Source: a virus
Direction: 5' to 3' (one strand)
Length of the DNA stretch: 38,052 nt
IMG/VR virus record: IMGVR_UViG_3300009076_000019
Coordinates: 1-38,052 of that record
Shown: one piece after another, positions 2,898 to 7,541 of the stretch
How positions within the stretch are numbered: the first letter of the stretch is position 1
How the letters are laid out: every line of letters starts with the position of its first letter
Position numbers and translations under genes: made by a program
The notes under the pieces: generated by a model
Databases searched by the model: none
Seen by the model: only the letters and a program-made list of their open reading frames with translations
Told to the model about the DNA's origin: nothing

Positions 2898-4058
2898 TCA
2901 CCTCTTCGGATAGGTCTTGGTCAGCGCGCCATTCACTGTGTGGCCGCGCTTGAGGATCAGACGCGCCAGGGCGGCGCGGTCTTTCTGGCTGTGGCTGGCC
3001 TGGCTGAGCAGGCCGAAGTAGCTGTTGGCGGTTTCGCGCAGGTCATCTGCTGGTGCTGCGGCGGTACGTTTGATGGCCTGGGCCACTGAGCGTTTCCGGG
3101 TGGTGCGCCGCCAGGGCTTGATGACGTGGCCTACGAAGTCCACGCCGCGAGCAATGGGCTGCAGGATGGTCTTGGTCGGGTTGAGGCGAGCGCCCAGCGA
3201 GGGCAGGAAAGCTTCAATCTCGGCCAACCAAGCGTTGAGCTGTTGCGGAGACTCATGCAGCAGCACGAAGTCATCCACATAGCGCACGTAGTGCTTGCAG
3301 CGCAGGCGGTGCTTCACGAACTGGTCCAGGGCATCCAGGTACACGTTGGCGAAGAACTGCGACGACAGGTTGCCGATCGGTAAACCCAGCCGCGCAGGCT
3401 GTGCAGTCAGGCGCTTGTGCTGCGGCACCCGGTTGAACAGGTGGTTGGGGCTGCGCACTTCGTAGTCGGTGCGCGGATCGTGCATCAGGATCTGTTCGGC
3501 CATGGCCAGCCACCAAGGCTCGGTGATGCGCTTGGCCAGCTGCTGGCGCAGCACCTGCTTGTCGATGGCGACGAAGAAGTTGGCAAGGTCGCCCTTGAGG
3601 TAGAAGACCGGCTTCGCCCAGTTCTGGCTGATGCTGCGGATCTTCGATTCCAGGCGCTCAGCGGCGTACAACGTGCCGCGCGTTGGTATGCAGGCGCAAC
3701 TGTCCGCTATGAAGCTGGCGTAGAAGCGCGGTGCCACATGGTTGTAAAGCAGGTGGTGGACGATGCGGTCTCGGAAGTCCGCCGCCCATACCTCCCTGGC
3801 CTTGGGCCGGGTAACCACGAAGCAGATAGAGCGGCCTGGCCGGTAGGTGCCGGCAGTCAGGTCGCTGTGCAGCTGGGTGAGATTCCGCTCTAGGTCTGCC
3901 TCGAAGGCCAGCGCGCTGGCGCTGTTGCGCTTGGAGCGCCGGCAGTCGTAGTAGGCCTGGACCAGATCGCGGAACGGGTAGGGTGCAACAGTCGAATCTG
4001 CGGACGGGGCGGACGAGACACTCGTTGTTCTTGTCGTTGTTGTTCTGATTGCCATCAT
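2898..4058 (-). CDS. DGR-type reverse transcriptase
   Basis: The 386-residue reverse transcriptase copies the TR RNA with frequent errors at adenines to make cDNA that replaces VR sequence. The palm motifs are clear: an Asp in KGDLANFF (157), GLPIGNLSSQ (225-234), which is the form typical of DGR enzymes, YVDD (260-263) and GVDFVGHVI (305-313). The N-terminal conserved block (FEADLERNL, then TYRPG) also matches this clade. There is no separate maturase domain, as expected. The start is unusual: the frame has a TGA three codons before the tandem ATG at 4058/4055, and no ATG, GTG or TTG between there and the conserved N-terminal block. Both ATGs lie inside TR, so the first 20 or so residues (Thr/Ser/Arg-rich) are encoded by TR in a different frame from the lectin. 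No good ribosome binding site is visible. Confidence 0.95.
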   Translation of the reverse strand: MMAIRTTTTRTTSVSSAPSADSTVAPYPFRDLVQAYYDCRRSKRNSASALAFEADLERNLTQLHSDLTAGTYRPGRSICFVVTRPKAREVWAADFRDRIVHHLLYNHVAPRFYASFIADSCACIPTRGTLYAAERLESKIRSISQNWAKPVFYLKGDLANFFVAIDKQVLRQQLAKRITEPWWLAMAEQILMHDPRTDYEVRSPNHLFNRVPQHKRLTAQPARLGLPIGNLSSQFFANVYLDALDQFVKHRLRCKHYVRYVDDFVLLHESPQQLNAWLAEIEAFLPSLGARLNPTKTILQPIARGVDFVGHVIKPWRRTTRKRSVAQAIKRTAAAPADDLRETANSYFGLLSQASHSQKDRAALARLILKRGHTVNGALTKTYPKR

Positions 4059-4098
4059 CGAAGTTCATGTTGAATGCGTTGTTGGCTGAGCGCTGCGA
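3998..4098 (-). repeat. DGR template repeat (TR)
   Basis: This 101-bp copy matches the three VR copies without gaps. Read on the minus strand in the lectin frame it has ten Asn codons (AAC or AAT), the usual design for A-directed mutagenesis because AAY codons cannot mutate to stop by changing A. It is not inside a target gene: its upstream side diverges right after TCGCAGCGCTCAGCC. It overlaps the reverse transcriptase start. The 27 bp at its 3' end are G+C-rich and identical in all VRs (the IMH-like segment). Confidence 0.95.
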
Positions 4099-4269
4099 CC
4101 TGTCGTGCTATCTACGTCGCCGAGCCGAAGGCAAAGCCGATCAGCCCGGAAACTGCGCGAGACCTACGCGGACGCTTTAGACCGGCGGTATCTCGGATGC
4201 GCATGGCGGTGGCCTATCGGCCAGCGGCACGACCAGATTCAAATCGCACAGACCTGATCGCCGTAACGG
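4099..4269 (-). ncRNA. Putative 5' part of the DGR TR RNA
   Basis: A 171-bp gap between avd and TR without a convincing gene. In known DGRs the template RNA extends on both sides of TR and folds, with avd upstream. A small hairpin at 4210-4223 (TGGCC, loop GATA, GGCCA on the minus strand) lies about 112 bases before TR and resembles the hairpin behind VR2. The exact ends of the RNA cannot be read from the sequence. Confidence 0.5.
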
Positions 4270-4626
4270 TCAGGCAGCGGGCGCGGTTGCGGTGTAGCGT
4301 TTCCAGGCGTTGGCCTGCTTGCCGATGGAAGCGGTCAACTCGATGGCCGCCGCATGCTGCGGAACGCTGATAAAGCGCTTTTCCTTGAACAGCCTGAGCA
4401 GGAACTCAACCACTTGGATTCGCTCAACCAGTGAGCCCAGGTGCGGCTGCTCGTCTCGCGCGGCATTGGCCCTGGCAATCAGCACCATGACCTCTATGCA
4501 TTCATCGCGAACCTTCGCGCCAAGCCCGGCCTTGAAGTCGCGCGGGATGTTCCGTGTGATATCGGTGGCCAGACTGAGCAGATCAAAGGCGAGTTTGTGT
4601 ATCGGCAGATCCGTATGCATTGCCAT
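4270..4626 (-). CDS. avd: DGR accessory variability determinant (Avd-like)
   Basis: This basic, mostly helical protein has 118 residues, the usual length of Avd, a four-helix bundle that forms a ring, binds the reverse transcriptase and TR RNA, and is needed for mutagenic cDNA synthesis. Family-like phrases are the N-terminal LPIHKLAFDLL, the IPRDFKAGLGAKVRDE segment, LIARANAA, and the C-terminal VEFLLRLFKEKRFIS with SIGKQANAWKR. I chose the ATG at 4626 because GGAAG lies seven bases upstream; a TTG at 4656 would place the start inside the VR1 hairpin. It sits between target 1 and TR, the standard DGR order. Confidence 0.9.
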   Translation of the reverse strand: MAMHTDLPIHKLAFDLLSLATDITRNIPRDFKAGLGAKVRDECIEVMVLIARANAARDEQPHLGSLVERIQVVEFLLRLFKEKRFISVPQHAAAIELTASIGKQANAWKRYTATAPAA

Positions 4627-4646
4627 CGGCTGGCTTCCATAAAGCA

Positions 4647-4664
4647 CCGGCCGCAAGCGGCCGG
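4647..4664 (-). other. Hairpin downstream of VR1
   Basis: A perfect inverted repeat with arms CCGGCCGC and GCGGCCGG and a two-base loop (or seven pairs with a four-base loop). It begins exactly 30 bp after the end of VR1 on the coding strand. Hairpins or cruciforms just downstream of the VR are known to raise retrohoming in the Bordetella phage DGR. No T-run follows, so it is not a typical terminator. Confidence 0.8.
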
Positions 4665-4678
4665 ATTAAATGAACGAA

Positions 4679-5293
4679 TTAATCAATTAGCTCGCTGCGG
4701 ACGGGGCGGACGAGACACTCGCCGTGCTTGCCGAAGTTGCCCTGATGGCCATCATCGAAGTGCACGTGGAATGCGTCGTAGGCTGAGCGCTGCGAACTCG
4801 ACCAGTACCAGCGCGCCTGGAAGGCCTCAGTGCCACCATGCTGGAAGGAAGACAGCGCGGTCTGTGCTGGCGACTCTTTGTCGTACAGGGTGCCCACCGG
4901 CAGGCTGTTGGGGTTGTCACCGTCACGGTTCCAGCAGTAGTTCTGCTCGGTGGTCGGCTTGAAGTGGCGGTACTGCAGCTCCTGCACGTCGCGGGCTGGG
5001 ATAGCCCAGTCAGTGAAGCCGCCGATATCCAGGGCCAGCACCTGCTGCGCCAGTTCGCTTCCGGCTGCGGCCATGGCCTCGGTATTGGCGCGGCTATCGG
5101 TGAAGCTGCCCGCACCTTCGATCTTGACGCCGTAATTGCCCCATTCGCCTTCCAGCTCATGCTCACGGCCGGCGGTGATGTTGAGGTAGCGCTTGCCGTC
5201 CTGCACGGTGATGCCCGAGAAGAAGCCGCCGCCGTAGGGTGCGCCGATCTCGGGAATGGTTACCGCAGAGTCCTGCTGTTGTGCTGCTTGCAT
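4679..5293 (-). CDS. DGR target 1, DUF1566/C-type-lectin-like protein
   Basis: A 204-residue target protein. The C-terminal fold has the DUF1566/lectin signature WYWSSSQRS, then the variable segment, then ECLVRPVR; the last 40 residues are encoded by VR1. An N-terminal domain of about 50-100 residues (EGEWGNYG, then ANTEAMA, then LALD) is shared with target 3, so the two are paralogues. There is no signal peptide, membrane segment or tail-fibre repeat, so I cannot say whether it reaches the virion or the cell surface. AGAGGA precedes the ATG by eight bases. It follows a terminator behind target 2. Confidence 0.92.
   Translation of the reverse strand: MQAAQQQDSAVTIPEIGAPYGGGFFSGITVQDGKRYLNITAGREHELEGEWGNYGVKIEGAGSFTDSRANTEAMAAAGSELAQQVLALDIGGFTDWAIPARDVQELQYRHFKPTTEQNYCWNRDGDNPNSLPVGTLYDKESPAQTALSSFQHGGTEAFQARWYWSSSQRSAYDAFHVHFDDGHQGNFGKHGECLVRPVRSELID
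4695..4795 (-). repeat. DGR variable repeat VR1
   Basis: The 101 bp align to TR without gaps. By eye there are 14 differences, all at positions where the TR coding strand has A. The changed codons alter residues at most Asn positions of the TR-encoded peptide (for example to Tyr, Asp, His, Gly and Phe), while WSSSQRS and ECLVRPVR are kept. Confidence 0.95.
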
Positions 5294-5383: not shown

Positions 5384-5998
5384 TCAAATGAATGCTCTGC
5401 GGACGGGGCGGACGAGACACTCGATGCTCTTGTCGAAGTTGTCCTGAAAGCCATCATCGAAGAGCATGAAGAACGCGCAGTTGGCTGAGCGCTGCGAGCT
5501 GCTCCAGTACCAGCGATCCTTGGTGAAGATGCCCGGCACGTTCAGCCAGCCGAGGTACAGCTCAGCTGCAGCTGGCAGGTAGAAGTCTTTGTGTCCATCG
5601 GCGCTGTACTTCGCTGCCGCTTCTGCCGCTGGTTGGTCACCCTCGGCCAGCAGCGCCTTGGTGTTGGCCACGCCATCACGCTTACTGGTGGCCGCTGACT
5701 CTTTCTCGTAGCCACCCCAGGCGAACTTTCCGGCGTCATGCTTCGCCCAAATCAGGTAATGGGCCGGCACCTCGCCGTGAGCTGCCACCAAGCCGCCGTT
5801 GATGCCGCCTTGCTCTGGCCAGTATTCGCCCACTGCCGGGATGGAGTGCGCGCTCGGTGCCGCCGCTGGTGCTGCAACCGGCTGCACAACGCCAACCTGG
5901 GCCAGCGCTGCAGAGATAAAGGTGGTGGCCACAACATGGGCCGGCACTGACAGCTTGAAGCCTTCCGGCGTGGTGATCTTGATCATGTCGCGTTTCAT
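5384..5998 (-). CDS. DGR target 2, DUF1566/C-type-lectin-like protein
   Basis: A 204-residue target. Residues 1-55 hold a hydrophobic helix (near VVATTFISAALAQVG) and an Ala/Pro-rich linker, then the lectin-like domain with DGVANTKAL (shared with targets 1 and 3) and the closing WYWSSSQRS ... ECLVRPVR. The last 37 or so residues come from VR2. The N-terminal region differs from targets 1 and 3, which suggests a different attachment partner. GAGGA precedes the ATG. The hydrophobic segment is too internal and too short to be a clear signal peptide. Confidence 0.92.
   Translation of the reverse strand: MKRDMIKITTPEGFKLSVPAHVVATTFISAALAQVGVVQPVAAPAAAPSAHSIPAVGEYWPEQGGINGGLVAAHGEVPAHYLIWAKHDAGKFAWGGYEKESAATSKRDGVANTKALLAEGDQPAAEAAAKYSADGHKDFYLPAAAELYLGWLNVPGIFTKDRWYWSSSQRSANCAFFMLFDDGFQDNFDKSIECLVRPVRRAFI
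5397..5497 (-). repeat. DGR variable repeat VR2
   Basis: A 101-bp gapless match to TR with 14 differences by eye, all at TR adenines. The resulting residues are strongly hydrophobic at several sites (Phe, Leu, Cys, Ile), unlike VR1, which carries more His and Gly. That suggests different ligand preference. Confidence 0.95.
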
Positions 5999-6102: not shown

Positions 6103-7131
6103 TTACAGCTGCATGTAAGCGGCTATGAACTCTTTCGCCGCTTCAGCATTGATGGCGTTTCCGTAGGCGCGCAGGCGTCCCACTCGGGAGGGAGCCCCAT
6201 TAGCCAGCGGGAATGTGCCGGATTCAACTGGCCGCCACTTTCCATCCCGGCAGAAGAGCCAGTCAGAATTAACCCAGAGGCCGTTAACCGGGCCGGCACA
6301 GTCAGCTGGGCGGCATCGTCCAAGTTCCTCTTGCCCTCGGCAAACCGCTTCATTGCCGTCTGCGGTGTCGAGGTCCGTCCGTTCGGGTCTCCGTCCCTGG
6401 CTTGCGGGGTTGGCCATCCGCCCAAGTGCCAGCTGATCGCATCCACCGTTTTCCGGCTGCTGTCGTTGTTCCCCGCTGCACTGTTGCCATTCTGCGCCGG
6501 CGTGCCCGCCATCGGAGTCGGCCAGCCGGTCAGGCATGCAGCCGCCGCAAGGTCCGGGCCGTGATTCCGCATCGCCTCCATCAGCCCCCCCTCGAAAGTC
6601 CGGACCCCTTTGTCTGCCAGCGCCGCAGTCGGTGTCGGCCACCCAATAAAGCCTGTCTCGGATGTGCGGCGCACCGATGCCCGCAGACGGGAACGGGACG
6701 GCCCCGAAGGCGTAACCCATGGCTTCCAGGTCAGCGTGTACAAGGTCGACCCAAGGCTCGACATCCTTGCTTGCAACCTGCTCTCCAATAACGACTGGAG
6801 GCGCGCACTGCTTGATGAGCCAGCCAAAACTTGGCCAGAGGTGTCTTGGGTCCGCAAACCCACCGCCAGCGCCTGCCGCGCTGAAAGGCTGGCATGGGCA
6901 ACTTCCTGTCCAGATAGGTCGATTATCCGGCCATCCCGCGCGACGCAAAGCCAATGACCAGACGCCGACTCCGGCAAAGAAGTGGCATTGCGTGTATCCC
7001 ACAAGCTCATCTGGCTTGATGTCTTCAATGCTGCGCTCATCAACTACTCCTGGCGCGATGTGACCCTCCTTGATTAGGTTGCGGAGCCACTCGGCGGCGT
7101 ATGGATCGATTTCGTTGTAATAGGCGGTCAT
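6103..7131 (-). CDS. Phage DNA cytosine-5 methyltransferase
   Basis: A 342-residue enzyme that would methylate C5 of cytosine using S-adenosylmethionine. Motifs seen: FFAGVG (motif I, 51-56), PCQPFS with the catalytic Cys (motif IV, 79-84), GEQV (motif VI variant, 116-119), HIRDRLYWVA (motif VIII) and YGNAINAEAAKEFI near the C-terminus (motif X). The middle 120 residues, which should include target recognition, are low complexity (Gly, Asp, Gln) and read another gene in a second frame. I chose the ATG at 7131 because it overlaps the upstream stop in an ATGA junction. The target sequence is unknown; a role in avoiding host restriction is inferred. Confidence 0.88.
   Translation of the reverse strand: MTAYYNEIDPYAAEWLRNLIKEGHIAPGVVDERSIEDIKPDELVGYTQCHFFAGVGVWSLALRRAGWPDNRPIWTGSCPCQPFSAAGAGGGFADPRHLWPSFGWLIKQCAPPVVIGEQVASKDVEPWVDLVHADLEAMGYAFGAVPFPSAGIGAPHIRDRLYWVADTDCGAGRQRGPDFRGGADGGDAESRPGPCGGCMPDRLADSDGGHAGAEWQQCSGEQRQQPENGGCDQLALGRMANPASQGRRPERTDLDTADGNEAVCRGQEELGRCRPADCAGPVNGLWVNSDWLFCRDGKWRPVESGTFPLANGAPSRVGRLRAYGNAINAEAAKEFIAAYMQL
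6123..7040 (-). CDS. Overlapping gene nested in the methyltransferase
   Basis: A 305-residue open frame on the same strand as the methyltransferase but in another frame. The ATG at 7040 has a strong AGGAG at a six-base spacing, better than chance would give. The protein has repeated GWPTP phrases, STLYTLTWKPW, and a C-terminal RWLMGLPPEWDACAPT. I recognise these from proteins found beside or over phage cytosine methyltransferases, where a LMGLPPEW-type phrase is common. The function is unknown; it may assist or modify the methyltransferase. Confidence 0.7.
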   Translation of the reverse strand: MSAALKTSSQMSLWDTRNATSLPESASGHWLCVARDGRIIDLSGQEVAHASLSARQALAVGLRTQDTSGQVLAGSSSSARLQSLLESRLQARMSSLGSTLYTLTWKPWVTPSGPSRSRLRASVRRTSETGFIGWPTPTAALADKGVRTFEGGLMEAMRNHGPDLAAAACLTGWPTPMAGTPAQNGNSAAGNNDSSRKTVDAISWHLGGWPTPQARDGDPNGRTSTPQTAMKRFAEGKRNLDDAAQLTVPARLTASGLILTGSSAGMESGGQLNPAHSRWLMGLPPEWDACAPTETPSMLKRRKSS

Positions 7132-7541
7132 AGCTTTAGGCCCAGGTATTTGATGGCCTTCTCGCGCCACTCGAAATCATCCCAGCCGCCCAACCTGATG
7201 TTGCACTTGTGGCAAACCAGGCCGCGAACAGCGTCGGTGTTGTGGCAGTGGTCGACGCAAGGCCGCCGCATCTCGGCCTCACAGACTGCGCATCGACCAA
7301 GCTGAGAAATCAGCATCCCCTCGAAACCATCAGCGCTCAGCTTGTAGCGGGTTGCCAGCTGCCACTTCGCTTTGTTGGCCTTGGAGTAGGTGCGCTTCCT
7401 GTTCTCTCGACGGTTTGTGTTAACGCAAGGCTTGCACCAGCTGGCGTGCCCATCGCTCGACTTGCTTGAGAGGTGGAATCCAGACAGCGGCTTTGATGTT
7501 TTGCACTTTGTGCAGGGCTTCTCTGGCTCGATTTGCTGCAT
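7128..7541 (-). CDS. Endonuclease VII-like HNH protein
   Basis: A 137-residue nuclease of the recombination endonuclease VII family, which cleaves branched DNA. It has an N-terminal CTKC ... CKPC zinc pair and a C-terminal CAVC ... CVDHCH ... VRGLVCHKCNIRLGG block holding the HNH-like catalytic site and the second zinc pair. In phages such small forms may resolve DNA branches before packaging or act as homing-type nucleases. It ends in an ATGA overlap with the methyltransferase and starts in a TAATG overlap with the gene upstream. Confidence 0.85.
   Translation of the reverse strand: MQQIEPEKPCTKCKTSKPLSGFHLSSKSSDGHASWCKPCVNTNRRENRKRTYSKANKAKWQLATRYKLSADGFEGMLISQLGRCAVCEAEMRRPCVDHCHNTDAVRGLVCHKCNIRLGGWDDFEWREKAIKYLGLKL

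Follow-up and report, generated by a model that had tools for sequence, protein, structure and literature searches.

In the DGR of phage BPP-1, which is ordered avd-TR-spacer-brt, the 144-nt spacer recruits the enzyme and primes cDNA according to the available text of PMC12875486. A layout in which the template repeat (TR) overlaps the open reading frame (ORF) of the reverse transcriptase (RT) is a published class, DiGReF structural group 3, and the available text of that paper describes the overlap without a test of frame (PMC3521204). In Pseudoalteromonas ACA phages, TR is described as being translated as an N-terminal extension of RT (PMC10612066, available text). The locus described here shares with BPP-1 an Avd, a TR, an RT, a lectin-type target and TR/VR differences restricted to adenines, and it has TR overlapping the RT ORF by 61 nt (4058–3998), as in DiGReF group 3.

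The DGR cassette of the window

The window, which is the whole of virus record IMGVR_UViG_3300009076_000019 (38,052 bases), carries a DGR on its minus strand with the following parts:

2898–4058, minus strand: RT ORF, 386 amino acids, start inside TR (ORF list)
3981–3997, minus strand: translated linker from TR to the conserved RT domain, 17 nt
3998–4097, minus strand: TR, 100 nt (alignment to VR1 and VR2)
4053–4058, minus strand: ATG ATG, the sole canonical RT starts in the open frame
4065–4067, minus strand: in-frame TGA, which bars any start further upstream
4096–4286, minus strand: RT-15 structured RNA (Rfam RF03018), adjoining TR on its 5' side
4270–4656, minus strand: Avd accessory protein, start codon TTG in the ORF list
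4679–5293, minus strand: lectin-like target protein 1, Lcl_C domain (Pfam Lcl_C, 1.3e-07)
4695–4794, minus strand: VR1 (TR alignment)
5384–5998, minus strand: lectin-like target protein 2, Lcl_C domain (Pfam Lcl_C, 8.6e-05)
5397–5496, minus strand: VR2 (TR alignment)

The RT is of DGR type as judged by matches to PHROG phrog_1423 (5.9e-115, residues 32–380) and Pfam PF00078 (1.1e-15) and by tblastn alignment to BPP-1 brt at 31% identity. Avd was matched by both Pfam bAvd (1.5e-12) and PHROG Avd (1.9e-31). The Lcl_C score of target 1 lies slightly under the Pfam curated cut-off and that of target 2 is also below it; the two targets have a PHROG in common. VR1 and VR2 end 16 and 13 nt short of the ends of their respective target ORFs, and all 14 mismatches of TR to VR1 and all 14 to VR2 fall at TR adenines. 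With A-only TR/VR differences, an Avd and lectin-like targets carrying a VR near the C-terminus, the cassette is a genuine DGR, and the A-only differences show, at the level of sequence, past DGR activity. Elsewhere on the minus strand, a phrog_3451 gene of unknown function (2277–2894) starts 3 nt past the RT stop, and a DNA methyltransferase ORF (6103–7170) shares most of its length with a 306-aa ORF read in a different frame (6123–7043).

An earlier note on this DNA held that a TGA lies three codons before an ATG pair at 4058/4055 in the RT frame and that no ATG, GTG or TTG follows before conserved sequence. Direct codon-by-codon reading bore out both the positions and the count: the order is TGA (4067–4065), ACT, TCG, ATG (4058–4056) and ATG (4055–4053), and none of the RT-frame codons between the ATG pair and the conserved YPFRDL (TAC CCG TTC CGC GAT CTG, first codon 3980–3978) is ATG, GTG or TTG. 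The RT of the window phage would thus have to begin in TR, as that note had argued, since the two TR ATGs are the only starts in its open frame. The dual-coding character which it ascribed to TR was likewise found, the lectin being read in one frame and the RT N-terminus in the other over the 61-nt overlap. Read one base out of step, the lectin FDDG Asp codons (GAT GAT GGC) yield the ATG pair in the RT frame, and the second ATG (4055) is the start position most widely common to the relatives.

No good Shine-Dalgarno was found before the TR ATG, 142 of 143 TR-start loci giving values between +0.4 and -3.3 kcal/mol, and part of the ATG region is paired in the predicted fold of the window RNA, which counts against a TR start. 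Because there is no strong Shine-Dalgarno at this position, RT output from a TR start is probably low; in the available text of PMC12875486, BPP-1 brt is likewise without a clear ribosome-binding site.

Reading phase between TR and RT

Relatives of the RT were gathered from phage records, IMG/VR and GTDB genomes, taking the best 80 loci per search. Some IMG/VR records are present twice under different identifiers (e.g. L298 and L170), and loci with identical neighbourhoods were collapsed, so that 315 scored loci gave 268 distinct ones, of which 266 had a TR 3' anchor; six loci which were too short or ended before the RT start were left out. Start modes were assigned for 261 of the 268, after L119, L150, L154, L234, L284, L290 and L291 had been set aside. 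An Avd homologue lies upstream of RT in every one of these 261 loci among the matches listed. The RT relatives L234 and L290 have no TR found next to RT on the upstream side.

The distance from the TR 3' end to the RT domain was a multiple of three in 263 of the 266 anchored loci among the matches listed, with 12 in-phase lengths of 15–51 nt. L154, L284 and L291, the three exceptions, are among the seven loci left out of the start-mode scoring. In each, an ATG occurs downstream of TR, four codons ahead of the RT domain, and the RT-15 anchors are weak. Clustering at 90% RT identity reduced the 261 loci to 146 representatives, a set which does not contain the three exceptions, and none of these was out of phase. 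Parsimony on the RT tree counted 45 length changes and one phase change; these Fitch counts rest on a single FastTree tree; irrespective of the tree, 12 lengths need no fewer than 11 changes. The control was a set of 12 distant phage DGRs with 56–320 nt from TR to the conserved RT domain, and in it all three phases between the TR lectin frame and RT occurred (4, 5 and 3). Since phase is kept through length changes in this lineage and is free in the distant DGRs, we conclude from the sequences that translation of its RT starts inside TR or ahead of it.

The coding signal of the linker itself was clearest at its commonest length, 27, where third-position variation in the RT frame was 0.45 versus 0.24 and 0.35 in the others and where the RT frame had the most synonymous changes; at lengths 30 and 36 the signal was weak or absent.

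Start positions and the N-terminal tail

Each locus was scored for two features, an ATG inside TR and an open in-frame ATG in the 30 nt before the RT-15 conserved core. Among the matches listed, 58 of the 261 loci had an upstream start only, 147 (the kind to which the window belongs) a TR start only, 52 had both and four had neither. Of these last four, L168 carries an in-frame ATG further up, at codon -94, and the Pseudomonas relatives L003, L004 and L126 show a third start position, their ATG standing one codon ahead of the RT domain. The earlier statement that the enzyme begins in TR therefore stands for the window phage, and what it missed is that many relatives start upstream and translate all of TR.

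The upstream start has features of its own. An open in-frame ATG just 5' of the RT-15 core was present in 58 of the 59 loci which lack an ATG between the RT-15 end and RT, 46 of them with strong Shine-Dalgarno pairing, and where the core was out of phase such an ATG was found in 5 of 118 loci, none with a strong Shine-Dalgarno. In 35 of the 58 upstream-start loci, counting from the first base of the RT start, the avd stop begins 5 nt further on, an 8-nt overlap whose layout would be typical of coupled translation. RT-15 lengths follow the same division: in the 59 loci without a later ATG, RT-15 changed length 14 times, always in phase, and the 202 loci with an ATG between the RT-15 end and RT had 54 length changes and 34 phase changes.

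The codon usage of TR also depends on whether an upstream start is available. The lectin codon lying 16 RT codons before the TR 3' anchor was NAT, and so gave RT an ATG, at 143 of the 151 loci that lack an upstream start and at 22 of the 110 that have one (48/54 versus 20/92 when counted by 90% clusters); this agrees with the proposal of the earlier note that TR evolution and enzyme expression are tied together. The two starts were allowed to change independently on the tree in 6000 simulated runs, and the 830 runs whose tip counts did not depart far from the observed ones were retained; only one of these left four or fewer loci without either start (mean 37.9). The same note had allowed that a sequencing error might hide an upstream start. 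A near in-frame stop recurs in 100 of 168 loci (the window counted twice), and 95 of 261 distinct loci among the matches listed have the exact ATG pair as their only TR ATGs and lack an upstream start, so that such an error is practically excluded.

Very probably, then, RT starts either in TR or upstream of it, and selection keeps an open frame in phase. The DGR is ordered avd, RT-15, TR and RT and would have no untranslated spacer from TR to RT. In the window phage and Pseudomonas-type relatives, ribosomes would begin RT at the ATG derived from the lectin FDDG Asp codons, and a single RNA would serve as both template and message. In other relatives translation would begin about 18 nt before the RT-15 conserved core, close to where avd stops and in most cases after a Shine-Dalgarno; the ribosome would then decode almost the whole of RT-15 and TR, giving a tail of roughly 80 residues. 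Selection would maintain the open, in-phase frame from whichever start serves.

The tail encoded from the TR start in the window has 26 Thr-rich residues, 20 of them from TR, and would be floppy. RT N-terminal tails of both kinds are predicted to be disordered, AlphaFold giving pLDDT below 50 for residues 1–27 of the window RT and 1–81 of an upstream-start RT; these models are of moderate confidence (mean pLDDT 67.9 and 69.7) and were used for tail disorder only. The RT-15 part of upstream-start loci contained 0 RT-frame stops per sequence versus about 1.4–2.3 in the other frames, and no clear third-position excess was seen there. Protein-level selection on the RT-15-encoded tail was considered and found no support in this part; with stops absent and third-position excess not clear, what selection appears to preserve is an open frame and not a peptide.

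Of the other explanations, the one that survives best, and still an unlikely one, places the RT start after TR at a non-canonical codon such as the CTG of YPFRDL, the open frame through TR being incidental. The missing Shine-Dalgarno at the TR ATG would fit such a start, as would L003, L004 and L126, which have no TR ATG and place theirs next to the RT domain, but it leaves unexplained why the TR-RT phase is held through many length changes and is free in the 12 distant DGRs, and why NAT follows the lack of an upstream start so closely. Production of RT by frameshifting, or by termination-reinitiation from an upstream or lectin-frame ORF, we regard as very improbable. A lectin-frame ATG does lie 10 nt upstream at 4068 and a third-frame TGA (4057–4055) overlaps the ATG pair, but RT-15 of the window has stops in all three frames, TR-start loci have RT-15 in all three phases with respect to RT (37, 72 and 38 of 147), which leaves no constant upstream ORF to lead into the RT frame, and RT entry would in any case still fall inside TR. 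A fixed upstream ORF coupled to RT in the window was rejected on these stops and on the frame not being kept. That the phase lock reflects a spacing need of the RNA and not translation is hardly credible, for the RT-15 fold kept in both start modes does speak for strong RNA constraint nearby, yet the linker, at 15 to 51 nt, varies in steps of three only and RT-15 changes length out of phase just where a TR ATG makes this harmless.

RT-15 and comparison with known systems

RT-15 is said to originate with Weinberg 2017. In the window it is matched at full length with 180.2 bits (E 4e-45; gathering score 82), its 3' end reaching the 5' edge of TR, and full-length matches between avd and TR were obtained in all 15 relatives tested, which cover both start modes. 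Its fold has the support of covariation, with two-sided changes in 14 of 36 predicted pairs among upstream-start loci (30 of 58 loci used) and in 12 of 32 among TR-start loci (30 of 147). The conserved structured RNA is RT-15, on the 5' side of TR and not on the 3' side.

The earlier note had also supposed that RNA after TR, which is important for cDNA priming in the Bordetella phage DGR, would be coding here. That this RNA is coding was upheld; a BPP-1-like priming RNA in the same place was not, the first 48 RT codons keeping their synonymous variation. No synonymous suppression was detected in these codons in three groups of relatives. Codons 37–48 dip in the Pseudomonas-like group (0.25 versus 0.40 overall), but this dip is equalled elsewhere in the gene and has no match in the other two groups. 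In place of an untranslated structured spacer of BPP-1 type there is the 17-nt linker, and a spacer hidden in the RT coding start was dismissed on the synonymous profile. With so short a linker and unreduced synonymous variation, the priming-RNA claim is not supported.

RT-15 is the apparent RNA element of the DGR in this lineage and may replace the BPP-1-type spacer. In the two upstream-start loci whose alignments were inspected (L277:3706-3888 and L193:3721-3903), the RT Shine-Dalgarno and ATG lie on opposite arms of the first RT-15 hairpin, which is therefore a possible translation switch in upstream-start relatives. A tentative extension, to which we give rather less than even weight, is that the template RNA is the RT message by design: RT-15 would be the 5' counterpart of the BPP-1 spacer, in upstream-start members its first hairpin would hold the RT start codon paired to the Shine-Dalgarno, the templating fold would exclude translation, RT would prefer its own message, and starts would have moved into TR where the switch was lost.

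A mutator template which also codes for part of its own enzyme makes frame lock, TR codon choice and start switching measurable, and the question is raised of how cDNA is primed in a DGR with no spacer after TR. A frame test or start switching was not found in the literature searched, whose scope excluded Weinberg 2017 and Wu 2018 (a DGR survey). The frame lock, the start switching and the RT-15 context seem to be new here, and conservation combined with a shifting start seems to be undescribed. Rfam RF03018 is listed as an RNA gene; here it is found immediately 5' of a DGR template and, unlike that listing, it lies largely within the RT ORF in many relatives. The ACA phages differ in having 135 nt from TR to the conserved RT domain and an RT which is about 35% identical. 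In BPP-1, by annotation, TR directly follows avd and is separated from brt by 144 nt, whereas here TR is preceded by RT-15 and followed after only 17 nt by the conserved RT domain.
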